Below are positions 4,813-60,424 of a stretch of DNA of 64,000 bases, in pieces; positions within the stretch are counted from its first letter, which is position 1, and each line of letters starts with the position of its first letter. The translations under genes and the position numbers were made by a program. Source of the DNA: Sphingobacterium spiritivorum (lineage in GTDB: Bacteria; Bacteroidota; Bacteroidia; Sphingobacteriales; Sphingobacteriaceae); NCBI RefSeq assembly GCF_016725325.1, contig NZ_CP068083.1:3968001-4032000 (forward strand), in the 5' to 3' direction. A model generated the notes under the pieces. It saw nothing but the letters and a program-made list of their open reading frames with translations, had not been told where the DNA came from and made no database searches.

Positions 4813-7800
4813 ATGAAAATAACCTCTAATTATGGGAAGGAAGGCTATTGCAGATACTCTTCTGTCCGAAAAATACTGATTGTGATGAAACTCATTACAT
4901 TATTCATGGTGGCGGCGCTCTGTCAGGTACAGGCTCTTACACATGCACAGTTAGTCACGCTCAAAGGAAAAAATGCGCGACTCACCGATATTTTAAAAGA
5001 AATAAAAAAATAGACCAGATACGATGTGATCAGTGAATCCGGTATCGTGGATCGTCTTCGGGTGGAGGAAGTCGATCTGAATAGAGTGTCTTTGGATAAG
5101 GGACTTTCACAGCTATTAGCTCCATTTGCATTAGATTTCGTGATTGAAGATAAAGCTATTGTTATAAGACGATCTTCAGTTGCAAAAATGAGCAAGGCCG
5201 AAAATACGACAGATGTACAAACGACAATAAAAGGTAAGGTCAGCGGAAAAGACGGACAGGCAATTAAAGGCGCCACAGTACAGGTGAAGAATACACGTGA
5301 AGCTACCGCCACAAAAGATAACGGTGAATTTGAGATTACAGCTAATCCTGGTGACCTTCTCATGGTAAGTTCTGTCGGATTCGTAGCTCAGGAAGTGTCT
5401 GTACAAGGTCGGGGATACCTGACCGTGGTACTTGATGTATCCAATAGTGCACTGGATGAAGTCGTAGTGGTGGGATATGGGGAGCAAAAGAGAAAAGATG
5501 TACTTGGAGCAATCAGTACAGTTACATCAGAAGATTTTGATGACAGACCATCTACCAATCTGGGCTATTCTATGGAAGGTAAATCAGCCGGCGTGATGAT
5601 TACGCGCCCGTCCGGTAAACCACAGAATGGGATGAGCGTACGTGTACGTGGTACAAACTCTATTACTGCCGGCAGCAATCCCTTATACATCGTGGATGGT
5701 GTGCCGACTCAGTTGATATACGATATTAATCCAAATGATATAGAAAGTGTGTCTGTTCTTAAAGATGCTGCATCAGCAGCTATCTATGGTGCTTCCGGAG
5801 CAAACGGGGTGATTCTGATCACAACTAAGCGTGGAAAAGAAGGAACTTCCAGATTAAAACTCTCCGGTTATACCGGTTTCAGCCGGATCGCAAAGAAAAT
5901 GGATGTGCTGGACAGAGATCAGTATATATCTCTGATGAATGAAATCGGGCAGGTTGCTGATTGGAGTAAATATACCGCCAATACAAACTGGAGTGACGAA
6001 GTATTTCGGGTAGCCCGGCTTCAGAATTATCAGATGACTGTAGAAGGTGGCAATGCAAAAACCAAATATTATCTTTCCGGAGCATACTCAAATGAAAACG
6101 GAGTAGTGAAAACAAATCATATCAAAAGGGGAACAGTCAAAATGAACCTGGACCAGAAGGTAAATGACTGGTTGAGTGTTGGTACAAGTATCAGCTACGC
6201 ACGTTGGTTTGATAAAAATATAATCGATAATTCGGGATCAGGCAATGCCGGCGTGATTATGAACGTGCTGACCAGTTCTCCGGTTATCGGTATCTACAAT
6301 GAGGATGGTACATTTACGGCTAATCCTCTTCGGCTATCTTTCAACAATCCTGTAGCCTATATAGACGGTTCCGTAAACGGATATAATAATAACCGTTTCT
6401 ACGGGAATATTTTTGCAAATATAGATTTGCTGAAAAATCTGAGATTCAGATCCATGTTTGGATATGATAATTATAACAGTAAATACAATTATTTTTTAGA
6501 TCCGTTTAAAACAGATTGGGGAAGAGTAAATCGTGGTATTGCCAATCTTTCCAATGAGCAGAGTGAATACTGGTTGTCAGAGAATACATTAGAATATAAA
6601 CAGACATTTCAGGATAAACATAATCTCGAAGTATTGGGAGGAGTGACCAGTCAGCGTAAATATGGAGAATCCAGCAGTATTGAATCTAAAGGATTCAATA
6701 GTACTGCTGTACAAACGGTCAACGGCGGAACAATATTTACAAATCCGATAACAGCTAAGAGTCAGCGGAGTAACATCTCCATTATTGGCCGTATACGCTA
6801 TTCATTTGACGATAAATATCTGCTGTCCAGTAATTTCAGAGCGGATGCTTCTTCCGTATTCGGTCCGGACAATCGCTGGGGATATTTTCCTTCTTTCTCT
6901 GCAGGATGGCGTCTGTCTGAAGAGAATTTTCTTAAAGACGTGTCGGCTATCAACGACCTGAAGATCAGGTATTCATGGGGGCAGGTAGGTAATGATGCAA
7001 TCGGCGCTTACAGTTGGTACGGAATCGTATCACCCGGAATCAACATGATTCAGGGTGGTCAGGTCGTAGCCGGTACGGGACCATCTACTCCGGAAAATAC
7101 AAGTCTGAAGTGGGAAGCTTCAACACAGAATAACCTGGGACTTGATGTAACTATCTTAGACAACAGGCTTACATTTGCCTTTGATGTATATCAAAAGAAG
7201 ACAAAGAATCTGTTGTTAAATAAACCGCTGGCTCTTTCCAGTGGTTTTACAGGAGCATTACAGAATATCGGAGATCTGGAAAATAAAGGATTAGAGCTGA
7301 CAATATCTTCCAAAAACCTGAAAGATAAGCTAATCTGGAATACGGATTTTAATTTCTCACTCAATAGAAATAAGGTCGGATATATAGGAGGACAGGATAT
7401 CCTCGACGGATACATTCCTTTACGCCAGGAGGTATCATTGATTCGTGAGGGTTTGCCTTTAGGTGTATTCTGGGGATATCGTTCACTTGGAGTAGATCCT
7501 GCTACAGGGATGATGAAGTATGAAGACCTGAATAATGACGGAAATATAGATGACGCTGATAAAATGATCATCGGTAATCCCAATCCCAAATTTGCATTCG
7601 GTCTGAATAACAACTTCCGGTATAAAAATTTCGGACTGTCTTTCTTTTTGCAGGGTATTTCCGGCAACGATGTATTCAATGCCACACGAATTGAAACTGA
7701 AGGAATGAATGATTTCAAAAATCAGTCTGTTAAAGTCCTGAACAGATGGACAACAGCAGGACAGCAGACCGATATCCCGAAAGCGATCTATGGAGATGTT

Positions 7801-8079
7801 ACTAATTCAGACATTTCTTCCCGATTCGTAGAAAACGGATCTTACATGCGGTTGAAATCTGCGACGCTTAGTTATAGTTTTCCATCTGACTGGCTTAGCA
7901 AATTGAAAATAACCGAATTGAGTTGCTATCTGACCGGTGAGAATATCTTTACCGTAACAAAGTATTCCGGATATGATCCCGAATCCAGCGCCTACGGTTC
8001 AAACGGAGCCTTTGGTATCGATTTCGGTACTTATCCACAGGCCAGACAATTTATTTTTGGTGTGAATCTAACCTTTTAA
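4813..8079 (+). pseudogene. SusC-like TonB-dependent receptor with in-frame TAG (locus 1)
   Basis: The frame from ATG 4813 encodes a signal sequence and the start of an STN signalling domain (LKGKNARLTDILKEIKK), then meets TAG at 5011-5013. The same frame continues with the rest of the STN domain (TRYDVISESGIVDRL...AIVIRR), a carboxypeptidase-D-like beta-sandwich (TIKGKVSGKDGQAIKGATV), the SusC signature LDEVVVVGYGEQKRKDV, plug and barrel, ending FIFGVNLTF. Restored length would be 1,088 residues, normal for SusC. The family usually has Q at the stop position, so CAG to TAG is likely. A restart at GTG 5026 leaves an open frame of 1,017 codons but without signal peptide, so it should not reach the outer membrane. 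The rest of the gene shows no other damage, so the mutation is recent or a base-call error. Confidence 0.85.
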
Positions 8080-11827: not shown

Positions 11828-14800
11828 ATGAATTATAATGTGGGATTGGGAGGACTGCGTACTGTTCTCCTGAAATTATTATGGGTAATGAAAATTACTG
11901 TCTTCATGCTGGCTGTAGCTTTTGTCCTGGTATCCTTTAAGGGTGAGGCACAGACCATTAATATCCGGGGTAGTCATCTGCGGATTGAAAATTTAATCAA
12001 AGAAATTCAAAAACAATCAGGATATAACTTTTTGTTTGATGATCAGCTTCTCGAACGTACAAATGTTAAAAATGTACATATTGTCAATGCATCTGTCAAA
12101 CAGGCTTTGGATGCTATTTTCAATGAAACAGACATTACATATGTCGTGACTGATAAGAATATAGTCCTTAAGAAAAAGAAAGAATTGGGTGTGGCGGTCA
12201 CTACCCTGACGTTGCAGGAAGAAGTCATTAAAGGCATTATTCGTAATGATCAGGGTATTGTACTGCCTGGTGCAACTATCCGTAATAAACGAAGCGGACT
12301 TATTGTTTCTACCAATAATGAAGGAGAGTTCAGCATCCGTGCACAGGCAGGTGATGTTCTTGAATGCAGTTTTCTTGGATATCAAAGGGCAGAGTACAAA
12401 GTCAAAAATAATGAAAATGCTGCAGTTGTGCTTTCTAAAGCAATAACTGAACTGAACGATATTGTTGTAGTGGGGTATGGTGCCCAGCAAAAGAAATTGG
12501 TCGCGGGAGCTATCAATACGATCAAAGGGGATGAGCTTGCAAAATCTCCGGCAGTCAATCTATCTAACACCTTAATGGGAAGGGCTCCCGGAATATCATC
12601 TACGATGACTTCGGGAGCTCCTGACCGTGACCGTGCTACTATCAAAATACGCGGAATGGGTGAGGCGCTGATCGTCATTGACGGAGTGGCCAGAGAAGGT
12701 CAGGGAATCATTGGTATGGAAATGGATAAGTTGGATCCGAATTCCATTGAAAGTGTTACTGTGCTTAAAGATGCTGCTGCCGCAGTATACGGTACACGCG
12801 GTGCAAATGGTGTAATCCTCATTACCACTAAAAAAGGTAATAAAGAACGCCTGGATATTCAGTATAGCGGACAGTTTGGTTTTCAGCAGAGTACCAGATT
12901 ACCCCGTTTTCTGGATTCTTATCAGTATGCAATGCTGAATAATGAAATGTACGATAATGATGTTGCTGAAAGAGGTTCTTCACCACGGAGTAAGTATACA
13001 AATGAGGAATTGCAGAAATTCAGAGATGGCACCGATCCGGATCGTTATCCGAATACTGACTGGTATAAAGAAGTGCTTAATAATACTGCAATGCTGCAAC
13101 GCCATAATGTAAATGTAAACGGAGGTAGCAAAAATGCCCGTTACTTCGTGAGCGGAACATATACAGATCAGGATGGTCTGATGAAAACCTCCGGATTGAA
13201 AAGATATGGCCTTGTCAGTAATACGGAATATGATGTCACACCAAATACAAATTTATCTGTAGGTATTAACTATATCAGTGAAACGGCAAATAATCCGGCC
13301 GCATATGCAGAGACGATCTTTAGCAGACTGGCTTCATTGGGATCTATAGCTCCGGCCAGGTTCTCTAACGGATACTACGCTTATTCCGGATTTTCAGGTA
13401 ATCCCTATTCAGATGTATTAGCCGAAAGTGGCTATAACCGGACCACAAGAAACGTATTTACAGGTTCATTCCGATTGACACAGCAGATTCCTTTTATCAA
13501 GGGATTATCCGCAAGTGCTGCAGTAACTGTAGACCGTAACAACGCTTTTCAGAAAGGATTTACTACACCTGTTCCGCAATATACATTAGCACAGGACAGA
13601 GAAGAATATACGTTGCAGAATGGTTCGGAAAAACCTTACCTGAGTCAGTCTTACAACCAGAATAACAATGTCAATGTACAGGTGAAATTAAACTACAAGC
13701 AAAAGTTTGGAGACCACCATGTCGATGCAATGGCACTTTATGAACAAAATGAATTTAAAAGTGAAATGTTCTCCGCCGACAGAAGCAACTTTCCTGTAGC
13801 GAGCTTAGATCAGCTTTTCCTTGGTGACGCCAGTACCCAGAAAAATTTAGGTTCTTCTACAGAAAATGCAAGACAAAGTGTCGTTGGCCGTCTTGTATAT
13901 AGCTATGATCAGCGTTATGTGGTAGAAGGAAGTTTCAGATATGACAGTTCACCTTATTATCCCAAAGGAAAGCGTAATGCACTTTTCCCGGCAGTATCAG
14001 CAGCGTGGATTGTGTCTGAAGAAGACTTTTTCAAAGAGCGTTTCTCATTTGTTGACAATCTGAAAATCAGATCTTCATTTGGACGGTTAGGCAATGATGG
14101 CGGTAGCTTGTATACCTATTTTTATAATTATGCCATCATGCCGGCTGGATATGTATTCGGGACAAATAATGCGATTACTCCACTGACCAGAATTTCAAAT
14201 CTTACTGTTCCTAATACGAATATTACCTGGGAAAAAGTAGATGCCTTTGATATCGGAGTGGATGCCATTCTATGGAAAGGTAAGCTGGGATTGGAGCTGG
14301 ATTACTATAACAAGAATAAGTTTGATATTCTGCGTTCCAGATCATATGATGTGCCATTGTCATTTGGTATGACTCCTGCTTTGCAGAATTTTGCAAAAGA
14401 AAGATACTATGGCTATGAAGCTGCATTGTCACATAGAAGCCGTATAAAAGACGTACAGATCAATGCCCGGATCAACATGACGTATACGAAAAGCCGTGCA
14501 GTAGATTATGGAGAAAACGATGCGGTATTACCGGGTTTACGTCAGGAGGGATCTGCCATTGGAATGGTGCGTATTCTGAATGCAAAAGGTATCTTCAGAG
14601 ATGAGGCAGATGTAGCTAACTGGCCTAAATATCTGAGCAGTCCTAATGGCACTCCTGTTACTCCGAAGCCGGGAGATATCAAGTATGAAGATATGAACGG
14701 TGATGGGGTAGTCGAATTGTATAGTGGCAGTCCGGATCGTGCATTTGAGGCACGCTATATCAATCCACCGACTGTATACGGAATCAATCTGGGTGCAGCA

Positions 14801-15217
14801 TGGAAAGGTTTATCTGTAGATGCATTTTTCCAGGCATCGACAGATGTATTTATCAATTATACAGCTGCCAATGATATTGCTAATTTCTATGAACTTCATC
14901 TGGACAGATGGACTCCGGATAATCCGGATGCCAGTTATCCTAGATTATTGTCGAATCATGAGAATAACAGACTTCCATCTACCTTTTATGTGAAAAACGG
15001 AAACTATATCAAATTGAGAACAGCACAGCTGGCTTATGATATTCCAAAAGACTGGATCAAAGCTGCAGGTCTGAGATCTATGAGTATCACTGTGCAGGGG
15101 CAAAACCTGTTTACGATCAGTAAAAACAGAAGATATGATCCGGAATCTACCGGTGCAACAGCCAACTTATATCCTCCACAACGCATCTTCTCTATGGGAG
15201 TTCGCGTAGGTCTTTAA
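11828..15217 (+). CDS. SusC/RagA-family TonB-dependent receptor with STN domain (locus 2)
   Basis: This 1,129-residue outer-membrane importer has a signal region (FMLAVAFVLVSFKGEAQ, ending near 38) and an STN signalling domain at about 40-115 (INIRGSHLRIENLIKEIQKQ, then SGYNFLFDDQLL). A carboxypeptidase-D-like beta-sandwich follows (VIKGIIRNDQGIVLPGATI), then the SusC box LNDIVVVGYGAQQKKLVAGA, plug domain and 22-strand barrel. The STN domain lets it sense bound substrate and signal to FecR. It is intact, unlike the receptor in locus 1. With SusD and a secreted metalloprotease downstream it probably imports peptides (inference). Confidence 0.96.
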   Translation: MNYNVGLGGLRTVLLKLLWVMKITVFMLAVAFVLVSFKGEAQTINIRGSHLRIENLIKEIQKQSGYNFLFDDQLLERTNVKNVHIVNASVKQALDAIFNETDITYVVTDKNIVLKKKKELGVAVTTLTLQEEVIKGIIRNDQGIVLPGATIRNKRSGLIVSTNNEGEFSIRAQAGDVLECSFLGYQRAEYKVKNNENAAVVLSKAITELNDIVVVGYGAQQKKLVAGAINTIKGDELAKSPAVNLSNTLMGRAPGISSTMTSGAPDRDRATIKIRGMGEALIVIDGVAREGQGIIGMEMDKLDPNSIESVTVLKDAAAAVYGTRGANGVILITTKKGNKERLDIQYSGQFGFQQSTRLPRFLDSYQYAMLNNEMYDNDVAERGSSPRSKYTNEELQKFRDGTDPDRYPNTDWYKEVLNNTAMLQRHNVNVNGGSKNARYFVSGTYTDQDGLMKTSGLKRYGLVSNTEYDVTPNTNLSVGINYISETANNPAAYAETIFSRLASLGSIAPARFSNGYYAYSGFSGNPYSDVLAESGYNRTTRNVFTGSFRLTQQIPFIKGLSASAAVTVDRNNAFQKGFTTPVPQYTLAQDREEYTLQNGSEKPYLSQSYNQNNNVNVQVKLNYKQKFGDHHVDAMALYEQNEFKSEMFSADRSNFPVASLDQLFLGDASTQKNLGSSTENARQSVVGRLVYSYDQRYVVEGSFRYDSSPYYPKGKRNALFPAVSAAWIVSEEDFFKERFSFVDNLKIRSSFGRLGNDGGSLYTYFYNYAIMPAGYVFGTNNAITPLTRISNLTVPNTNITWEKVDAFDIGVDAILWKGKLGLELDYYNKNKFDILRSRSYDVPLSFGMTPALQNFAKERYYGYEAALSHRSRIKDVQINARINMTYTKSRAVDYGENDAVLPGLRQEGSAIGMVRILNAKGIFRDEADVANWPKYLSSPNGTPVTPKPGDIKYEDMNGDGVVELYSGSPDRAFEARYINPPTVYGINLGAAWKGLSVDAFFQASTDVFINYTAANDIANFYELHLDRWTPDNPDASYPRLLSNHENNRLPSTFYVKNGNYIKLRTAQLAYDIPKDWIKAAGLRSMSITVQGQNLFTISKNRRYDPESTGATANLYPPQRIFSMGVRVGL

Positions 15218-39774: not shown

Positions 39775-42700
39775 ATGTATAATCTAGGAAAGCTTACCAT
39801 ATTAACCACAAAGGTTTTGCTTTGTACATCCATACTTTACGCCGATCTGCCTGTCGCGATAGCCCATATTTCCGTCTTTCAGGAATATTCTAACGGTATT
39901 AACATAAGACTTACAAACAGTAATGCCGAACAGGCAATTATCCAACTTTCCCGTCAGACCGGAATAGCTTTGGCGTATGATACTAAAGCGCTGCAATTGG
40001 ATCAGATCCGTATCAGAGAAAAGAATTTTGAGAACAGTACTTTTGATGAAGTACTCCGTTATATTTTAAAGAATACTCAAATAGTAGCGCATAAAAGATC
40101 CGGAGGTATTGTTCTGGTTCGTGATCCGAAAGGACAAACCACTTATTTACTTCGGATCAGACTGATTGATGAGGTTCGTAGGCCTGTTGCAGGGGCATCT
40201 GTTCAGATACTTTCGACAGATAAAGCAATGTCTACGGATGAGAATGGAAATGCAGAATTCAGACTCCCTGAAGGTCAGTACAATCTTAAGGCCACACATG
40301 TGGGTTATGAGGATAAATATATAAATCAAATAACTGTAGACAACAGAACTGCAGGGGTTCAGACTCTTGTCATGCAGGATAAAAGCAGCGAGCTGGGTGA
40401 AGTAGTTGTTACCGCATTAGGTATGAAGCGGAAAGATCGTTCACTGGGTTATGCTGTAGGAAATATTAAAGGAGAGGATCTTAACCGTGTCGCTAATGAT
40501 AATTTTATGGTTGCTATGGCTGGTAAGGTACCGGGTGTATCCATTAGTTCTACAGGACCTACAGGTTCCTCGGTGAGTATGGTGATACGTGGAGCTACTT
40601 CCCTGAGCACGGATAATCAACCCTTATTTGTTGTTGATGGTGTGCCTTTGATGAACAGCCTTAATAATATCGGACAGATTGGTGATGATAACAGGGTAGA
40701 TTATGGTAATGCCATTTCGAATATCAATTCCGATGATATTGAGAGTGTTTCGATTCTTAAAGGACCAAGTGCAGCAGCTTTATATGGATCCCGTGCAGCA
40801 AATGGAGTCGTGCTCATCACTACCAAGAGTGGCAAGAATGCGGAAAAAATGACGATTGCAGTCAATAGTAATACGGTATTTGATATCCCATATCATTATA
40901 TAAAATTGCATAATAAGTTTGCAAGTGGCACTATGCCGCTTACACCTGATCAGGTAAAAGGAAATCTGACCATTGAAGAAGGATCCAGCGGTATGGTAGG
41001 GCCTGCACTGGATAAGGGATATAAAGCAATTCAATGGAACAGCCCCCTCGACGAGAATGGAAATCCGATACCAACTGAATTAAAATCTTATCCGGACAAT
41101 ATCAAAAATTTTGTCCAGACCGGGATTACTTCTGTCAACGGACTTTCGATAGCTAATCGTAGTGAGCGTCTGGATTATCGGTTTTCTTATTCTAATATGA
41201 GTAGTAAAGGGATTATTCCTAATTCAGATCTGTTTCGCAACTCATTGAACATTAACTCGACCATGCATGTGAGAAAAGATCTGTCAATCGGTCTGCAGCT
41301 GGATGCCAGTCGTAACAATTCCAATAATCGGCCAGCAGGCAACAGAGGTACAAATCCGATGCAGGCTGCTTATGAGGTGGCTCCTCATATCAATATTCTG
41401 GATCTGAAAGATTACTGGATGCCGGGACAGGAAGGACTTCAGCAACGGTCCCAATCTGTCGGAAATCGGAATAATCCTTATTTTCTGGCTTATGGAGTTA
41501 ATAACGCATTTGTAAGGGATCGTATCTTCGGAAATCTGCGTATTGACTGGAACATTAAAGAAGGATGGACCGCGATGGTACGTTATGCGGCTGATGTGTA
41601 CTGGGAAAACAGGGAAACTAAGATCCCTTTTAGTTACACTAATGAACCGCGGGGAGCATATGGAGTTGTCAATCTGATGAATCTGGAGCAGAACATCGAC
41701 TTTCTGACTTCATATACTAAAAAAGTTAACGATTTTCATTTTACAGGATCGCTTGGAGGTAATATCCGGTATTATAAAGGAACTTCAGTACAGAATACCT
41801 CTAAAATCGGATCCGGACTTATCACTCCCGGCTTTTTCAGTCTTACAAATATTGCCCCGGACAATCTGGATTATAACAGTGCAATTGCAGAGAAAGGGGT
41901 CAACAGCTTATACGGATTGCTGAATTTTGGTTACAAAGATATGGTCTATCTGGATGTCACAGGAAGAAATGACTGGTCCAGCACACTTCCGGTGAATAAC
42001 AGATCTTATTTTTATCCTTCAGCTTCCCTCAGTATACTGGCAGACCGTATTTTTTCATTACCTAAACCTATCAGTCTTTTTAAACTTAGAGGAGGTATAG
42101 CACGTGTGGGGAATGATACGTCACCTTATAACCTCTCTAATGTATTGATTAATCCCGGTGCATGGGGCAATGTACTTCGTCTCACAAAGTCCGGTGCATT
42201 GCGTATTCCGGATCTGAAACCTGAACTGGCAACTTCGTATGAATATGGTACGGATATAGGTTTATGGAATAACAGACTGAAGTTTGAAGGTACGTACTAC
42301 AAAGTTGAAAACAGAAATCAGATTATCCCAACGACTTTACCCGGATCCAGCGGATTTAATTCCATGAATATCAATGCGGGTCTGCTGACAAGCAGAGGAT
42401 TTGAACTGGCAATGTCTGGTCGCCCTGTACAGAAAACAGACTGGACCTGGGATATTGGTGTAAACTGGTCACGCAACCGGACGAAGATCAATGAACTCTC
42501 TGATGGGGTACAATTCTATACATTCTGGACAGATGGACGGGGAGGAGCGCGTACCTATATAGGTGAAGAGATCGGAGACCTTTATGATTCCAAACTTGTA
42601 GTGGTGGAAGATCCGGAATCACCTTATTATGGCTATCCAATACTGAATAAAAACGGATCCTGGCAGGCTATCCGAATCAACAACAGTCGTAATAAGATCG

Positions 42701-43437
42701 GAAATTTCAATCCTGATTTTTCAATGGGTCTGCAGTCTACTTTGCGTTACAAAAAATGGACGATGAATATTGCTGCAGATATGCGTTTCGGAGGCAAGTT
42801 TATGTCGCAGACGTACCGCTATTTTGAGTCTAACCTGACGACACAGCGCTTTCTGGATCAGCTGATCCACCCTAACGGAATGACTGGTGCAGCTCTGCGG
42901 GATTATCTGGTTAATAACAATTTGGTAAAAGTGGAGGGCAACAGATATCCGATTGTCGGAGGTCCTGGTGACGAATACGGTGGTTACCCTATAACATCAG
43001 GAGGTATTACCGGTAATTATGGCGTATTTAATCCAGGTGTTATTGCGCAATACGATTCACAGGGTAATATTACCGGATATACCGAAAATCTGGGGGATGC
43101 AGGGACCAAATACATTGCCTATTCCGATAACTATCCATGGGATTTTATGAACGCTTCTACGTTTGATGCATCCTTTATCAAATTACGGGAATTATCTTTT
43201 AGCTACGATCTTACTGGCAACTGGTTAAAACGTCTTGGAGTATCCGGAGGAAGTGTAGGTGTATATACACGTAATTTACTGTTATGGACTAAAGCTAAAG
43301 TAGGTATTGATCCTGAAATGGCATTTCAGCCTGAAGCGGGTACACATGGTGGAATACAGTTCAAACAAGGTATAGAACGCTATAATGTAACTCCGTGGGC
43401 AATGCCGGTAGGCTTTAAACTGAATCTAACATTTTAA
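39775..43437 (+). CDS. SusC/RagA-family TonB-dependent receptor with STN domain (locus 3)
   Basis: This 1,220-residue protein has a signal sequence (TTKVLLCTSILYADLPVAIA), STN signalling domain (INIRLTNSNAEQAIIQLSRQ to about 115), carboxypeptidase-D-like sandwich (DEVRRPVAGASVQILST), the SusC box LGEVVVTALGMKRKDRSLGY, plug with PLFVVDGVPL, and barrel ending MPVGFKLNLTF. It is somewhat longer than the receptor of locus 2. The phosphoesterase genes downstream suggest that it imports a phosphate-bearing compound such as a glycerophosphodiester (inference); the receptor sequence itself does not reveal the ligand. Confidence 0.95.
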   Translation: MYNLGKLTILTTKVLLCTSILYADLPVAIAHISVFQEYSNGINIRLTNSNAEQAIIQLSRQTGIALAYDTKALQLDQIRIREKNFENSTFDEVLRYILKNTQIVAHKRSGGIVLVRDPKGQTTYLLRIRLIDEVRRPVAGASVQILSTDKAMSTDENGNAEFRLPEGQYNLKATHVGYEDKYINQITVDNRTAGVQTLVMQDKSSELGEVVVTALGMKRKDRSLGYAVGNIKGEDLNRVANDNFMVAMAGKVPGVSISSTGPTGSSVSMVIRGATSLSTDNQPLFVVDGVPLMNSLNNIGQIGDDNRVDYGNAISNINSDDIESVSILKGPSAAALYGSRAANGVVLITTKSGKNAEKMTIAVNSNTVFDIPYHYIKLHNKFASGTMPLTPDQVKGNLTIEEGSSGMVGPALDKGYKAIQWNSPLDENGNPIPTELKSYPDNIKNFVQTGITSVNGLSIANRSERLDYRFSYSNMSSKGIIPNSDLFRNSLNINSTMHVRKDLSIGLQLDASRNNSNNRPAGNRGTNPMQAAYEVAPHINILDLKDYWMPGQEGLQQRSQSVGNRNNPYFLAYGVNNAFVRDRIFGNLRIDWNIKEGWTAMVRYAADVYWENRETKIPFSYTNEPRGAYGVVNLMNLEQNIDFLTSYTKKVNDFHFTGSLGGNIRYYKGTSVQNTSKIGSGLITPGFFSLTNIAPDNLDYNSAIAEKGVNSLYGLLNFGYKDMVYLDVTGRNDWSSTLPVNNRSYFYPSASLSILADRIFSLPKPISLFKLRGGIARVGNDTSPYNLSNVLINPGAWGNVLRLTKSGALRIPDLKPELATSYEYGTDIGLWNNRLKFEGTYYKVENRNQIIPTTLPGSSGFNSMNINAGLLTSRGFELAMSGRPVQKTDWTWDIGVNWSRNRTKINELSDGVQFYTFWTDGRGGARTYIGEEIGDLYDSKLVVVEDPESPYYGYPILNKNGSWQAIRINNSRNKIGNFNPDFSMGLQSTLRYKKWTMNIAADMRFGGKFMSQTYRYFESNLTTQRFLDQLIHPNGMTGAALRDYLVNNNLVKVEGNRYPIVGGPGDEYGGYPITSGGITGNYGVFNPGVIAQYDSQGNITGYTENLGDAGTKYIAYSDNYPWDFMNASTFDASFIKLRELSFSYDLTGNWLKRLGVSGGSVGVYTRNLLLWTKAKVGIDPEMAFQPEAGTHGGIQFKQGIERYNVTPWAMPVGFKLNLTF

Positions 43438-55466: not shown

Positions 55467-56189
55467 CTAAAGTTTTTCAGCCTTCCAGGAGACCACTTTT
55501 ACTCCTGGAGAATAATGCGCTTTTGTCATTTTTATTGGAGAAAGTTTAATATCTCCGAAATTATAGTTAACCTCCAGATTAGTCAAATGTACATGGTGTA
55601 TTTCCCATTCTTTATGATGGATGTTATATCTCCATAACCCGGATTTTTTTTCGAGATAAAGACAGTATCGTTCTGTCAGCCACATATCCAGTGCGGATTT
55701 TTCAGCTACCTTATCGAGAATTTGAAAGTCCGAATGCAGGTTAAAATTCTTTTTTATATTCGTATTCGTATACAGATCCGTTTGGCGTGCTATTACAGAT
55801 TTTTGGTATGGAAGCCCGGACAGCGTTCGGGCTACAAATGCGGAAAGTGCTTTTTCTGCTTCTATGTGGATAAAATACACACCTTTTTTCTGGTCATTAT
55901 CAATATAGGTTCTGACATTTATTTCATAAAAATCAGATATAAATCCTACAGGAGGCAGATTTCGGGGACGTATATTTTGCATCTTAAATGCTACCAAAGA
56001 GATATAATATTTTCCATCAAAACTATCGATATGCAAAGCAGCCGGAACCAGCTTACGAAGGTGGTCATAGTCAATCTCAAAATGCAGAAACAGCGCATCG
56101 TTCCATTCCTGATAATACTGCCATTTTGAAGCAGGCATGTCCCAGGGTCTGTGTCCGATATCTGTTAGTAATTGTTTAATGGCATTCAT
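55467..56189 (-). CDS. DUF2071 (YqjF-like) protein
   Basis: This 240-residue cytoplasmic protein shows DUF2071 features: GHRPWDMPASKWQYYQEWND, then LFLHFEIDYDHLRKLVPAAL near 34-53, YISLVAFKMQNIRPRNLPPV near 62-81, FYEINVRTYIDNDQKKGVYF and a tail IKMTKAHYSPGVKVVSWKAE. The Bacillus homologue YqjF is of unknown function. It converges with the operon ending at 55442 and lies 50 bases after the PhyH gene on the same strand. Confidence 0.9.
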   Translation of the reverse strand: MNAIKQLLTDIGHRPWDMPASKWQYYQEWNDALFLHFEIDYDHLRKLVPAALHIDSFDGKYYISLVAFKMQNIRPRNLPPVGFISDFYEINVRTYIDNDQKKGVYFIHIEAEKALSAFVARTLSGLPYQKSVIARQTDLYTNTNIKKNFNLHSDFQILDKVAEKSALDMWLTERYCLYLEKKSGLWRYNIHHKEWEIHHVHLTNLEVNYNFGDIKLSPIKMTKAHYSPGVKVVSWKAEKL

Positions 56190-56239
56190 ATCTGTAATCA
56201 GGAGCTTCTTAATTAATGCTAATATCTGTTGTTTTTCAT

Positions 56240-56992
56240 TTAGCTGTATTCGGTTTTGACTATTTTTGCCGTATTCAGATCTATTCTTTCAGACCATTGC
56301 AATCCATCCGGCAGTTCAAGGTCTGCAAACTCTATATGAATAACCCTTCGTTTTCGATTATTTGTTGTCCGGCCTGAGCTATGAAGAAGCAACGGTTTCA
56401 TAATCATAATTCCACCAGATTCAACATCGCAGGTATACTCTTTTTCGATTTGCCAATCGATTGTTTCCGGTCTGTATATGTTTTTGAGGTGAGACTTTTC
56501 AATTACTTTCAGTGCACCGTTGTTTTCATTTGTTTGATCCAGATGGATTCTGACAGTAAAGATATTTTCCAAAACAGGCAAAGGAGGCTGCACAGCAAAT
56601 TGTCTTTGTTTTGCAGTCCATGACGTAAAACCCGGTATGTCCAGTTTTTTATCCACTGAAATGGTCAGATCCTGATGATAAGCGACATACCAGTTAGATG
56701 TTTCAGGTTTGTCAAAATATATGCTTTTGACTGAAAAATAGTTTTTTCCAAACAGGTTACTAATTACTTTCCGGAGATTCGGGGTGAAAACAATATTATA
56801 AAGAGACGGAATTTCCTTAAGAACCTGTCTGATAGCAAATAGATCGGTAGATTGACGGAATGTATCTTTATTCCTTTCGGTATTTTCAATACTTATGATC
56901 ATTTGATCTATTTCTTCTATTGAATATACGGCATTGATAATGACATATCCCTTTTCCTCCAAAACTTGTTTATAGAAAAGTATCTTTTCCAT
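56240..56992 (-). CDS. Phytanoyl-CoA dioxygenase (PhyH) family protein
   Basis: This 250-residue member of the Fe(II)/2-oxoglutarate dioxygenase superfamily has the first metal pair H-x-D in VAYHQDLTISVDKK near 119-121, the second histidine in MKPLLLHSSGRTT near 204 and a 2-oxoglutarate-type arginine shortly after (NNRKRRVIHIEF). The N-terminal KQVLEEKGYVIINAVYSIEE is typical. Substrate unknown; the family hydroxylates varied small molecules. It is followed by DUF2071 on the same strand, but no pathway is evident. Confidence 0.9.
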   Translation of the reverse strand: MEKILFYKQVLEEKGYVIINAVYSIEEIDQMIISIENTERNKDTFRQSTDLFAIRQVLKEIPSLYNIVFTPNLRKVISNLFGKNYFSVKSIYFDKPETSNWYVAYHQDLTISVDKKLDIPGFTSWTAKQRQFAVQPPLPVLENIFTVRIHLDQTNENNGALKVIEKSHLKNIYRPETIDWQIEKEYTCDVESGGIMIMKPLLLHSSGRTTNNRKRRVIHIEFADLELPDGLQWSERIDLNTAKIVKTEYS

Positions 56993-56998
56993 CTTTTT

Positions 56999-57576
56999 CT
57001 ATTTCTTTTTCCCGATAATAAAACCAATTTTCTCTATTTCTTCTTGTTTTCTGAACTCCATTTTATCGTGTAAGAGATCCAGACAATTAAAGAGAGTATC
57101 TAAGCTTTGGTCATAGCTGTTCTGTTTTTTTATAATCATTTCTACTGTATTCCTTAGTTCTGCGATTTCTAATTGAGCTTGAGTGTTATCGGTAATAACT
57201 GACGTAAACGCGTGAAAATACGCATTATCTGTATATTAATATGAATAGCAGGTTTACTGTTTAGTACAGATGATAACATCGCCACCCCTTGTTCTGTAAA
57301 ACAAAACGGAGAATATCTTAATCCCTTTTTATCAGAGTTGGAGATCACATTTTGTGATCTCCAATCTTGTAACTCTCTATCAGACATTTCAAACATAAAA
57401 TCTTCAGGAAACCGGTCTATATTTCTACGGACAGCCTGTTTGAGTACCCTGGTTTCTACATTATAAAGTTGAGCTAAATCTCTATCCAGTATAATTCTCT
57501 GTCCTCTGATGAGATATATCTTATCAATAAGAACTTCGTCAGAAAGTACATTTTGTATCTGGTCTTTTCTATTCAT
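56999..57576 (-). pseudogene. ORF6N-domain protein, frameshifted near the C-terminus
   Basis: The frame from ATG 57576 encodes an ORF6N DNA-binding domain ([20 protein letters not shown], then [54 protein letters not shown]) and stops at 57169 after a short unrelated tail (PITLKLN). In the next frame the family ending continues as [40 protein letters not shown] and EEIEKIGFIIGKKK to a TAG at 56999. One missing base around 57196-57200 explains the break; repaired length would be 192 residues, normal for the family. ORF6N domains are found in phage antirepressors and chromosomal relatives. An XRE repressor gene lies just upstream. Confidence 0.85.
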
Positions 57577-57694
57577 AGCTTTGTATTTGTTGATTAAGAC
57601 TGTGCAGATACCGTAATTATCTTTTGGTAAAGAAGATTGCTTTTTTATCAGTTCAGCATGATTTCAAACAGAGGCTTAGAAATCCTAAATACCA

Positions 57695-57952
57695 TTATTT
57701 CTTTTTGCTCTTGTCTTTTTCGAACGGAGGTATACTACTATCTTTCCAGTCGCTTGGATACAGCAAGTCACGGATATCTACACGCAGGTATTCCGCGATA
57801 TCATTTAGGGTATTTACAGTCGGCTGTTGCTTATTGTTAACCCATCTCGAAACCGTTTCCTTCTTTACATTGAGATGTCTGACCAGATCGTTATTTACTG
57901 CGCCTTTCTCTTCAAGAACGTCTTTTATTCGATTTGTTTTAATTTCTTTCAT
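57695..57952 (-). CDS. XRE-family helix-turn-helix regulator
   Basis: This 85-residue regulator has an HTH_3 domain at 5-62: IKDVLEEKGAVNNDLVRHLN, VKKETVSRWVNNKQQPTVNT and LNDIAEYLRVDIRDLLYPSD, with the recognition helix around KKETVSRWVNN. The C-terminal tail is short and lysine-rich. A 9-bp palindrome lies seven bases upstream of its start, a likely autoregulatory operator, and the divergent strand carries a promoter box facing a structured leader and a tiny ORF. It may be the remaining regulator of a small mobile or phage-like unit. Confidence 0.93.
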   Translation of the reverse strand: MKEIKTNRIKDVLEEKGAVNNDLVRHLNVKKETVSRWVNNKQQPTVNTLNDIAEYLRVDIRDLLYPSDWKDSSIPPFEKDKSKKK

Positions 57953-57959
57953 AATTATT

Positions 57960-57978
57960 GTTGATTTTTAAAATCAAC
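57960..57978. promoter_or_regulatory. Palindromic operator GTTGATTTT-T-AAAATCAAC
   Basis: A perfect 9-bp inverted repeat around one base lies between the XRE start (57952) and the divergent -7 box (57983). Its position suits binding by the XRE protein to control both directions. Confidence 0.6.
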
Positions 57979-57982
57979 TTTG

Positions 57983-57990
57983 TATATTTG
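57983..57990 (+). promoter_or_regulatory. -7 box TATATTTG facing the structured leader
   Basis: TATATTTG matches TAnnTTTG, five bases after the palindrome. Transcription would begin close to 57997, at the edge of the nested inverted repeat at 58000. Confidence 0.5.
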
Positions 57991-57999
57991 TTTATCATG

Positions 58000-58079
58000 T
58001 AGCGAAAATTAAATACGGTGTAAAGTTTTTACTGTCAGTAAAATCTGAGCCTTTACACCCTTTATAGAATATTTCGCTA
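58000..58079 (+). ncRNA. Triple-nested inverted repeat, candidate structured leader RNA
   Basis: The outer arms are TAGCGAAA (58000-58007) and TTTCGCTA (58072-58079). The middle arms are GGTGTAAAG (58017-58025) and CTTTACACC (58051-58059). The inner arms are TTTTACTG (58027-58034) and CAGTAAAA (58036-58043). All three are perfect and nest in each other, so the RNA could fold as one long stacked hairpin. It ends 21 bases before a 39-codon ORF with a good ribosome binding site. It could be a regulatory leader, a small RNA or a DNA-level binding site. Confidence 0.5.
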
Positions 58080-58100
58080 TACTAATTAAAGAGAGAGATT

Positions 58101-58220
58101 ATGAAAACATACGTTATTCATATCATAACCATTAATCCCGATCGTCATATACATCCCGAAACAGATGTACGGCACGATGCGCAATTCCATAAAAAGAACA
58201 TATCCTGTCCGCCAGAATAG
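58101..58220 (+). CDS. Possible 39-residue protein
   Basis: ATG 58101 follows the purine-rich AAAGAGAGAGATT, a good ribosome binding site, and the ORF stops at TAG 58218-58220 (MKTYVIHIITINPDRHIHPE..., histidine-rich). The same frame stays open for another 39 codons up to a TAG at 58338, which may be chance or a decayed longer gene. No family recognised. Its position behind the divergent promoter and leader is the main support. Confidence 0.35.
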   Translation: MKTYVIHIITINPDRHIHPETDVRHDAQFHKKNISCPPE

Positions 58221-58590
58221 GGCGTTTATCCTATTACAGACAGCAAAAAAGGCTGTACGATATTCCTTTTACCGGAAATCGTAGTATTTCCTTTCTACAA
58301 CAGAAAAGAAATAAGAAAGCCCCTTTGCTTTCGTCTGTAGACCAACCTCTCTTCCATAAGAAATCCCTTGCTTCAAATGGTTAAATCAATTGTTCTTCTT
58401 TTTTTTAGCTCATTAAAGATAGATTGTTTTTTCTGCCAAAGCAAGTAACTTGTATCATATTTTTTGATACTTTCTTAAAAGGAGGGGTTTGGTTTTTTTA
58501 AATTAATTGATTCTGAAAACTTATATAGTTCTCTTCGTAAGGTGTTGTGAACATGTAAGATAAGAAAGGTATTCCGCTAAGCCCAAGTAT
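58221..58590. other. Intergenic region without a recognised gene
   Basis: This holds a small hairpin GAAAGC-CCCTTT-GCTTTC (58317-58334), an inverted GTATCA...TGATAC pair around 58454-58472 next to AAAGGAGGGG, and otherwise AT-rich sequence. I see no coding frame with protein character apart from the continuation noted for the 39-codon ORF. Confidence 0.4.
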
Positions 58591-59718
58591 ATGAGACATT
58601 ATACATATGATATAAATTATACACTCTTGCTGACCGATGAAGAAATCTGTAATCCTTTTACTGTATTGGATGATGTTTTTGGAGATACTTCTTCCTGCTT
58701 TCGTATGCAGGAGCATTTATGGGATCTGGTTACAGTGGCTATGCGTCCGCATTACTGGACACGCTATGATTCTCCTCTTAAAATCTGTAATCTGTATAAA
58801 TCTATTTTGAGATTGATAGAAGCCGGTTGGCTGATATCTCTTGTACGGCCGGAGCAGGAAATAAGGTCATCTTTGTCAGACAAATTTATGGCAAAGCAAA
58901 CGGATCTGAAAAGACCCGTCATCAAACCCTTAGAGCAACAGGCTTTGCTAAATGCATATAAAATAGTATTACAATCTTATAGAGAAGACAAACTGTTTTC
59001 AGTCCGCATCGATCTTTTTGAATTTCTGTTTGAAGGATTACATCCTACATGTGTGGAATATTCACCTTCTCTGAATGAATATCTGGTTGATCGCTACCAC
59101 TACCTGAGCAGGCTTATAGATGCTTTATATATCATTCATGATCAGGAAAAGAGAAGAGAATGTTCAGCTGAGGATCTTCTTATTCTGGAAAAATATCAAC
59201 AAGATGACACAGCTGGTATACGGCAAATTCATATATATCAGCATCAGTTAACGGATATGTTTACCTATTCTGAAAAAGAAAATTTGCAACATGCCTTATC
59301 ATCTTCGTATAAAGTATTGTACCATAATGATTTCTGGAAATACCATCATGATCCGGCCAATGTACTCCATTACTTCCATGACTTTATATTTATAATAGAT
59401 AGCGCTTATGTATTTTTACAACATAGCATATCCAGCAACACAGATCCGGAGTTGGAATGGAATATTCCGGCTCATATACTTCAGGAGATAACATTACAGA
59501 CTGTAAAGGAAGGCAAAAAACCTTTGAAATATCTGAGTGAAATGTTTGGGACCCGAACACGGAAGGAATGGAGAGAGGAACTTATGAAATGGGAGGAAGC
59601 CGTACTCAGCAATAAAAAGGTTCCCTATGAACAGAAGAGTATATACAAGGAAGTTCAGCAATTCTTAGCAGGTCTGCTTGAATTTATTACGCTTCTGCCG
59701 TATGCACCTAAAGGTTAA
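58591..59718 (+). CDS. Orphan helical cytoplasmic protein, function unknown
   Basis: This 375-residue protein has no signal peptide or membrane helix. It is rich in leucine, tyrosine and charged residues and is probably mostly helical (ILRLIEAGWLISLVRPEQE, LLNAYKIVLQSYREDKLFSV, YHYLSRLIDALYIIHDQEKR). I do not recognise any family or motif. It stands alone between the XRE island and a bidirectional terminator and is preceded by a long gene-poor stretch, so it may be lineage-specific. Confidence 0.8.
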   Translation: MRHYTYDINYTLLLTDEEICNPFTVLDDVFGDTSSCFRMQEHLWDLVTVAMRPHYWTRYDSPLKICNLYKSILRLIEAGWLISLVRPEQEIRSSLSDKFMAKQTDLKRPVIKPLEQQALLNAYKIVLQSYREDKLFSVRIDLFEFLFEGLHPTCVEYSPSLNEYLVDRYHYLSRLIDALYIIHDQEKRRECSAEDLLILEKYQQDDTAGIRQIHIYQHQLTDMFTYSEKENLQHALSSSYKVLYHNDFWKYHHDPANVLHYFHDFIFIIDSAYVFLQHSISSNTDPELEWNIPAHILQEITLQTVKEGKKPLKYLSEMFGTRTRKEWREELMKWEEAVLSNKKVPYEQKSIYKEVQQFLAGLLEFITLLPYAPKG

Positions 59719-59749
59719 ACGCAAATATCCATGTACCCTAATACCGCTT

Positions 59750-59789
59750 AAATACGGTCGGCTCAATTTTTATTAAGCCGACTGTATTT
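59750..59789. terminator. Bidirectional terminator between convergent genes
   Basis: A 14-bp stem with one G-T wobble (AAATACGGTCGGCT / AGCCGACTGTATTT) has a T-rich 12-base loop and flanking A and T runs, between stops at 59718 and 59798. Confidence 0.85.
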
Positions 59790-59797
59790 GTAAAAAA

Positions 59798-60424
59798 CTA
59801 TAGGGTCGTAAAAGTAAGTTTCTCGACTATATAGGCTTTTCCGAAATTATCAGGATCATGTTTTACTCTGGCAGTGACCATGTGCCATTTTGGAACTGCA
59901 TTCTGATTTGCTTTCCATTTTGCTTCCAGATCCATTTGTTCCTGCCACAGCATCTCCAGTTCTGCTGCAGCTTCAGTATTCAATGGTTTCAAGATGAGCT
60001 TTTCTCCCTCAAAATAATATTTGCCTTCTTTTTTACGGATTAAGATATAAGGTCCTCCGGGCATAACAGAACGAATAAGGGGGATGGTAAAGGTTTCAGT
60101 TCCGTTGTATTTTTCCTTATTCAGCACTTTCATAAATTCAAAGTAATAGGAGGATCCATCCATTGGTGGTTCTTTGAGACCCACCATTTTGGCCTTCACT
60201 TTATAACTATATCCCGTTTCCCGTTCATTAAAGTCATACAAAGGTATATCTATAGGTTCCTTTCCCGGCAATAACAATAATTGGTTATCTGTTGAACCGT
60301 ATTTATGACTGACCTGTATTTCAACGATCTGTCCGTTTTTTAATTTCCATGGACTGTATACTTCTTCTTTTTTACAGGAAAGCACCAATAAAAGGGTGCA
60401 CAGGGTAAACAATAGGTTCTTCAT
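59798..60424 (-). CDS. Lipoprotein of unknown function
   Basis: About 208 residues from ATG 60424 (MKNLLFTLCTLLLVLSC, lipobox VLSC with Cys17); the longer frame to 60559 adds 45 residues that do not look like a signal region. The mature part begins KKEEVYSPWKLKNGQIVEIQ and is predicted beta-rich; ELEMLWQEQMDLEAKWKANQ is a helix near the end. I do not recognise a family. Confidence 0.82.
   Translation of the reverse strand: MKNLLFTLCTLLLVLSCKKEEVYSPWKLKNGQIVEIQVSHKYGSTDNQLLLLPGKEPIDIPLYDFNERETGYSYKVKAKMVGLKEPPMDGSSYYFEFMKVLNKEKYNGTETFTIPLIRSVMPGGPYILIRKKEGKYYFEGEKLILKPLNTEAAAELEMLWQEQMDLEAKWKANQNAVPKWHMVTARVKHDPDNFGKAYIVEKLTFTTL

Follow-up and report, generated by a model that had tools for sequence, protein, structure and literature searches.

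Near 58 kb of a 64,000-nucleotide stretch of Sphingobacterium spiritivorum DNA (the window, in what follows), a small XRE regulator gene faces away from a tiny ORF with a structured leader. The ORF is followed by a second structured element, termed module B, and by a gene for a protein of 375 amino acids. The features are collected in Table 1.

Table 1. Features of the locus and their positions in the window.
Feature	Position	Strand	Basis
XRE (Cro/C1-type HTH) regulator, 85 aa	57695..57952	-	Pfam HTH_26 2.5e-10, HTH_3 2.7e-7
Likely XRE operator GTTGATTTT-T-AAAATCAAC, halves 57960-57968 and 57970-57978	57960..57978	.	perfect 9-bp inverted repeat
Predicted promoter P1: TTG in the operator, -7 box TATATTTG at 57983-57990	57961..57990	+	sequence
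Leader hairpin: outer stem 58000-58007/58072-58079, middle stem 58017-58025/58051-58059	58000..58079	+	inverted repeats, fold
Tiny ORF MKTYVIHIITINPDRHIHPETDVRHDAQFHKKNISCPPE, 39 codons	58101..58220	+	sequence; G033 counterpart
Family signature K-N-I-S-C-P-P-E and TAG, last 8 codons of the tiny ORF	58194..58220	+	pattern search
Terminator-like hairpin and T-run, leftward transcription	58315..58332	-	1 site in scan of 57600-58650; 0.5 +/- 0.8 expected
Module B, arms at about 58341-58348 and 58486-58493, T-run after	58339..58497	+	CM R1 match
Predicted promoter P3 within module B: TTGC at 58444, -7 box TATCTTTA at 58421-58414	58414..58444	-	sequence; invariant promoter columns in alignments
375-aa gene where the SusC operon would stand; possible new client	58591..59718	+	homologue at the same place in G033

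A preliminary description of this DNA had reported a 9-bp palindrome beside the XRE start, a divergent promoter box and an ORF of 39 codons, and all three were found, the box on the plus strand and the XRE gene on the minus strand. The palindrome covers the upstream element of P1, and the proposed XRE operator overlapping a divergent promoter was borne out at the level of sequence. The Bacteroidetes promoter consensus is given as TAnnTTTG and TTTG (PMC7366714); P1 of the window has the -7 box TATATTTG and a -33 score of 3 out of 4. Three inverted repeats of 8, 9 and 8 bp had also been described. All are present at their positions, but the inner one (58027-58034/58036-58043, 8 bp with a spacer of 1 nt) is unpaired as such in the minimum-energy fold of 57997-58108, which contains the outer and middle stems only. 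This fold reached -25.1 kcal/mol, compared with -14.3 +/- 3.1 kcal/mol for 200 dinucleotide shuffles (z = -3.43), and one of the 200 shuffles was as good. The putative ribosome binding site of the tiny ORF is AAAGAGAGAGATT. The view that a structured leader probably governs a real small ORF was supported. Module B at 58339-58497, with its leftward promoter, was absent from that description.

A family of tiny ORFs and its peptide end

The ORF end K-N-I/L-x-x-x-P-E-stop recurred at the 126 Sphingobacteriaceae loci examined (denoted L; genomes are denoted G), made up of 70 strict-pattern sites and 56 from a relaxed-pattern search. The strict pattern, covering the last eight codons and the stop, was found in 41 of 93 genomes of the genus with up to five copies per genome, and its reversed-pattern control gave 0; the whole genome of the window holds one copy. 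The relaxed pattern, which misses the window's own copy, had sites in 63 of 399 genomes, spread over 7 of the family's 25 genera, and its control gave 1. One site, in G317 (L121), was left out because a longer coding sequence appears to enclose it. In a scan of 84,980 species, the 48 matches comprised 39 in Sphingobacterium, 3 in Olivibacter, 1 in Parapedobacter and 5 scattered others, the last being by our own estimate about the number expected by chance. Rfam 15 gave nothing above the gathering score in 56000-60000 of the window, and only sub-threshold, unrelated matches in 17 family loci. The family is apparently an undescribed control region that combines RNA with a mini-peptide. Many of its loci are related, and the permutation tests reported below count each as separate.

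In 114 of the 126 loci, the ORF is followed on its own strand by a homologue of the TonB-linked transporter SusC, which is upstream in one locus, and a TlpA-like gene is downstream in 97; the SusC of one family locus scored 443.6 bits to TIGR04056. For five of the 12 loci that have no SusC, the downstream sequence is shorter than 2.7 kb; the other seven are the window, G033, L071, L153, L161, L163 and L186. L153, L163 and L186 share the end KNIV[KR]SPE and a short leader, and are perhaps another orphan form like the window.

Further recurrent features were seen downstream of the ORF. A protein of about 124 amino acids (c1), which had no Pfam or NCBIfam match, is encoded between the tiny ORF and the TlpA/SusC genes in 46 of 126 loci (e.g., L102:5545-5919). 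In L048, L053 and L058, long repetitive low-complexity reading frames, possibly non-coding repeats, stand before or over the TlpA/SusC start. In L047, L050, L054, L063 and L106, the next frame, about 220-260 nt past the tiny ORF, begins with another recurrent start (M-K/R/N-x-F followed by G-rich, AGGGGTGGGAGAGG-like DNA).

The preliminary description had suggested a toxin-antitoxin-like or phage-derived unit. A type I toxin-antitoxin or phage-derived control unit would account for the XRE gene, the nearby ORF6N gene, the small ORF and the opposing promoter, and a hydrophobic stretch of 15 residues, by our own cut-off, occurs in 5 of 126 peptides, the window peptide not being one of them. However, the family context is that of transporter operons, the peptides are mostly short and basic (121 of 126 carry a net positive charge), and viral contigs contained no match to the C-terminal pattern. 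The suggestion found no support at the family level, and a unit of this kind is very improbable. Since the family stands at SusC operons, the locus probably serves as a gene switch rather than as a toxin unit.

Upstream divergent proteins were obtained from 116 of the 126 loci, 10 having none by the selection rule, and 62 of the 79 non-redundant ones were scanned. The most frequent matches were HTH_3 in 27, HTH_19 in 21 and HTH_26 in 18 of these 62, with overlapping counts and E values up to 0.05. For the window, the rule chose the ORF6N gene and not the XRE gene. The operator motif of the window occurred in six of 126 loci, namely the window, its ortholog in G033 and four others. An XRE with 72-75% identity to that of the window was present in precisely these four, and two loci with 50% and 33% identical XRE proteins were without the motif. 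The motif therefore tracks the XRE type, which ties the putative operator to the regulator by sequence. A different, longer palindrome, TAGCTATxxCTAAG...CTTAGTGATAGCTA, was seen in the P1 region of L087 and L107, about 470-425 nt before the motif, and is presumably the operator of another regulator type.

When the likeliest ATG was taken, the ORF had at most 20 codons in 65 of 126 loci and 33-47 codons in 61. Many peptides were only 14-16 amino acids long, and the residues before the C-terminal motif were variable but often K-K-Q. When P and the preceding residue were left free, P was present in 81 of 84 matches; when E and the stop were left free, P-E followed by TAA or TAG was found in 68 of 74 matches, and P-E-TGA in none. 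The reversed-pattern control gave 3 matches for the search with E and the stop free and 11 for the search with P free, and both the 13 new sites with P and the six exceptions to P-E-TAA/TAG were counted as pattern matches. E is nearly, not wholly, fixed, because three of the six exceptions, KNIIRAPD and KNIIKSPV (twice), agree with the rest of the motif. All four Pro codons and both Glu codons were used across the 126 loci. Conservation of residues with free synonymous codons indicates that the peptide end is under selection at the residue level, and the family thereby shows the conservation before the stop, at the peptide level, that is looked for in stop-codon stalling.

The stop codon was TAG in 84 and TAA in 42 of the 126 loci, TGA being excluded by the search patterns. 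Mechanically defined ORFs of at least 200 amino acids at the same loci (n = 370) ended in TAA in 221, TAG in 78 and TGA in 71 cases, and those in the window (n = 38) in 29, 7 and 2 cases, respectively. The missing UGA is weak evidence, because UGA is rare in the window genes anyway, and hairpins around the stop could account for part of the excess of TAG. UAG is specific for RF1 and UGA for RF2, and UAA is read by both (PMC10314930). The ending P-E-UAA/UAG points to a peptide acting at translation termination, and the shift to UAG is as might be expected of peptides that arrest the ribosome at termination.

The same conservation would be produced by a peptide acting in trans, for example by binding the transporter protein or a regulator, with the RNA structure only metering its dose. 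Conserved C-terminal residues with free synonymous codons are as compatible with this explanation, and so are the variable but often K-K-Q positions before them. However, an event at termination accounts better for the position of the conserved residues directly before the stop codon and for the surplus of TAG. The shortness of many peptides, given above, also speaks against a role in trans, and no signal peptide was seen by reading. A trans-acting peptide is accordingly regarded as distinctly unlikely.

The long leader hairpin and module B

In the 106 family loci with P1, a second TAnnTTTG was found about 133 nt past P1 in 80 cases, compared with 1 on the reverse strand and 11 in mononucleotide shuffles. 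Its -33 score was at background (2.06 versus 2.02), which makes an ordinary promoter at this box doubtful. The score of P1, 3.63, is not independent, because P1 was picked by a -33 score of at least 3. In 46 loci, a subset of our own choice with the second box in 45 and a variant box in one, this box is part of a long hairpin and mostly falls at the tip or close to it. The hairpin had z below -2 in 46 of 46 loci (mean -5.1) versus 4 of 45 control stretches. With its own arms it reached -34.3 kcal/mol, compared with -19.9 +/- 0.7 kcal/mol for swapped arms (0 of 2000 permutations), and its sequence was too variable between loci for a good alignment. In all 46 the sense strand was the more stable (-36.8 versus -26.5 kcal/mol for the antisense), as it was in 27 of 45 controls. 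Such an asymmetry is a mark of G-U pairs and suggests that selection acts on the sense RNA. A DNA cruciform as the selected form was rejected for the same reason.

Two helices could compete for the middle strand of the leader in part of the family. Pairing between the 5' strand and the middle strand scored 19.8 versus 16.6 +/- 0.4 in 45 loci (0 of 1000 permutations) and was locus-specific. Pairing between the middle strand and the ORF start scored 15.3 versus 14.0 +/- 0.3 in the same number of loci (0 of 1000), a small effect. The two best helices shared middle-strand bases in no more than 18 of 45 loci, so that the case for a strict switch extends to those loci only. RNA begun at the second box would lack the 5' strand, which is encoded upstream of it, and so could not form the closing stem that RNA from P1 could form. 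The outer stem of the window may be the positional equivalent of this closing stem.

Module B, about 142-162 nt long, follows the stop codon in the long-peptide class. By an arm search it was present in 45 of 126 loci, of which four KNIFKSPE loci were removed as chance arms (n = 41), and alignment A1 contains 26 hand-chosen modules, among them those of the window and G033 and four that were spotted by eye. The invariant columns are the arms and the boxes of a leftward promoter, P3, at promoter spacing. In a CM search of 30 loci, module B was not found in 23, mainly short-peptide ones. The module lies 5' of the tiny ORF, still pointing left, in L040, L064 and L180 (KNIIKSPE class), where the long hairpin was not seen.

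The covariance model R1, built without the window and G033, matched the window at 58339-58497 with 50.6 bits and an E value of 2.9e-9 in 64 kb, and G033 with 56.4 bits. In the whole genome the window copy was the best match (E 2.4e-7). The next four matches (E 0.16-0.25) comprised the promoter part only, upstream of 16S rRNA genes and in the predicted orientation, which supports P3 as a promoter; the sixth match had an E value of 0.35. In the arms, four of eight pairs had changes on both sides. The covariation score exceeded that of each of 500 shuffles; the number of additional pair types did no better than shuffles (239 of 500). The exceptions in the arms, read on the sense strand, were 12 G-U cells, 1 A-C and 7 others, and the ratio of G-U to A-C argues that selection acts on the sense RNA of module B. 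The terminator-like site at 58332-58315 lies downstream of P3, which predicts a leftward RNA of about 100 nt; this RNA (58408-58306) was not unusually structured (z = -1.0). A conserved leftward terminator for the family was not claimed, as the relaxed scan that found one in 33 of 46 was too loose. The leftward columns of the 26 aligned modules place a predicted opposing promoter in the operon leader, as in cis-antisense control; in the window, no susC follows it.

Promoters between inverted arms serve phase variation in Bacteroides. Module B might likewise be an invertible promoter that flips to drive the transporter, being a promoter bracketed by inverted arms upstream of SusC. However, 26 of 26 aligned modules have the same orientation (a hand choice not based on orientation), and the arms tolerate G-U but hardly A-C, which DNA inversion would not explain. 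On the single orientation and the G-U tolerance, this explanation was rejected as extremely improbable.

The orphan form and the proposed switch

When a region of 401 bases was compared with 59 genomes, seven gave some match and, besides the window's own genome, G033 alone matched over most of the region, with 77-79% identity and the same neighbour genes. The ORF is not confined to the window: G033 carries an open counterpart of 36 codons in which the start (MKTYVIH) and the end (KNLSCPPE, against KNISCPPE in the window) are kept and the centre is rearranged and poorly alignable. Within the last 27 nt of the ORF, the two species differ at one site. The leader stems are conserved in part. The outer stem is kept in G033 (7 of 8 pairs by eye, and also in the computed fold), but the middle stem is broken; the G033 leader folds at -21.0 kcal/mol with z = -1.7 (mononucleotide shuffles).

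The window keeps the regulator, the putative operator, P1, a short closed hairpin, the ORF and module B. It is without the long hairpin, the second TAnnTTTG and the SusC operon; the P1 box is the sole such box 5' of the ORF, the leader from P1 to the ORF is about 110 nt, and no alternative pairing at the start codon was found by eye. No similarity to SusC or TlpA was found near 58 kb, and the G033 locus is also without SusC. Other SusC-like regions of the window (5086-8076, 12179-15214 and 40108-43320) are far from the leader. The gene for the 375-aa protein starts 94 nt past module B, occurs in 2 of 126 loci (window and G033, at the same place) and had no Pfam or NCBIfam match. The ORF end at 58193-58228 is closest to KNISC loci (97% over 36 nt with G010), and the XRE and operator resemble those of KNIFRAPE/KNIFCSPE loci; for this reason the window copy looks mosaic.

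We judge the window locus to be an orphan member of the family, a reduced, operon-less copy of the control region that is either rewired to the 375-aa gene or a slowly decaying relic. In the stronger form of the latter, the unit lost its operon and its switch part, has no present function, and is conserved by recent inheritance. The missing SusC/TlpA similarity, the short leader lacking the second TAnnTTTG, and the broken middle stem and poorly alignable ORF centre of G033 would all agree with such a loss. However, the last 27 nt are nearly unchanged despite the rearranged centre, both ORFs are open, and module B still scores highly in both genomes. A functionless relic is a serious reading that we hold to be rather unlikely.

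In the preferred reading, which we hold with moderate confidence, the locus is a cut-down copy, lacking the operon, of a cis-acting control region that stands in front of TlpA/SusC operons and works as a switch combining a leader peptide with RNA folds. In this mechanism, the HTH/XRE protein would control the divergent promoter P1. RNA from P1 would fold into the long hairpin, the closing stem of which would join the 5' strand to the middle strand just 5' of the tiny ORF, as the locus-specific pairing suggests. At some loci, the ORF start region could take the place of the 5' strand as partner of the middle strand, and computed pairing potentials suggest that mutually exclusive folds may be used in the cell. 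The ORF would be translated up to the near-invariant P-E-stop, with UAA or UAG as an RF1-type stop codon, and there the nascent peptide would probably delay termination. The position of the ribosome would then set the downstream fold and, through it, the expression of the transporter operon. In one class, P3, a promoter by its sequence, may produce an opposing RNA between the ORF and the operon. In the window, the switch part appears to have been cut to a simple hairpin and the transporter lost, with the ORF and module B kept before the 375-aa gene.

A bolder version is offered tentatively and, taken as a whole, is unlikely. Here, the choice between P1 and the TAnnTTTG of the hairpin would pick the fold, P-E-stop would sense a condition through RF1, and the switch would set one of several TonB-linked transporters; the window lineage would have been rewired to 58591-59718.

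Likenesses to several known systems can be seen. The PUL-associated cis-antisense RNAs of Bacteroides (DonS type) and the FopS sRNAs also act through RNA at the 5' end of susC operons, and there, too, an RNA is encoded divergently to the operon (PMC10994844, PMC11697453). These are antisense or trans-acting small RNAs, and a conserved leader peptide is not mentioned in the portions of the two sources covered, whereas in the present family P3 is a predicted promoter between the tiny ORF and the operon. TnaC, SpeFL and MsrDL also have a short leader ORF in which the end residues matter, a release-factor step is involved and the choice of stop matters (PMC10314930). No sequence relation to these three was seen; the family ends in P-E-UAA/UAG, its client is a TonB-linked transporter operon, and stalling is a prediction. 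In the replication control of plasmid R1 and IncI plasmids, a structured leader, a leader peptide ORF and an opposing antisense RNA occur together. The combination of parts is alike, but the present family stands at chromosomal transporter operons and the peptide sequence itself is conserved. Among the literature matches listed, which came mostly from outside subscription journals and preprints, no description of a KNIxxxPE leader family was present. The single elements are known, and the combination and the family were not found in the literature covered.

Which SusC transporters are made by bacteria that have many of them is a standing question. Sigma/anti-sigma pairs and hybrid sensors are known answers. 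At the RNA level, antisense RNAs and FopS-type sRNAs have been described (PMC10994844, PMC11697453). A recurrent leader with a conserved mini-peptide is a directly testable RNA-level answer to the choice of SusC, and P-E-UAA/UAG adds a candidate motif for stalling at termination. The window holds such a leader parted from its operon.
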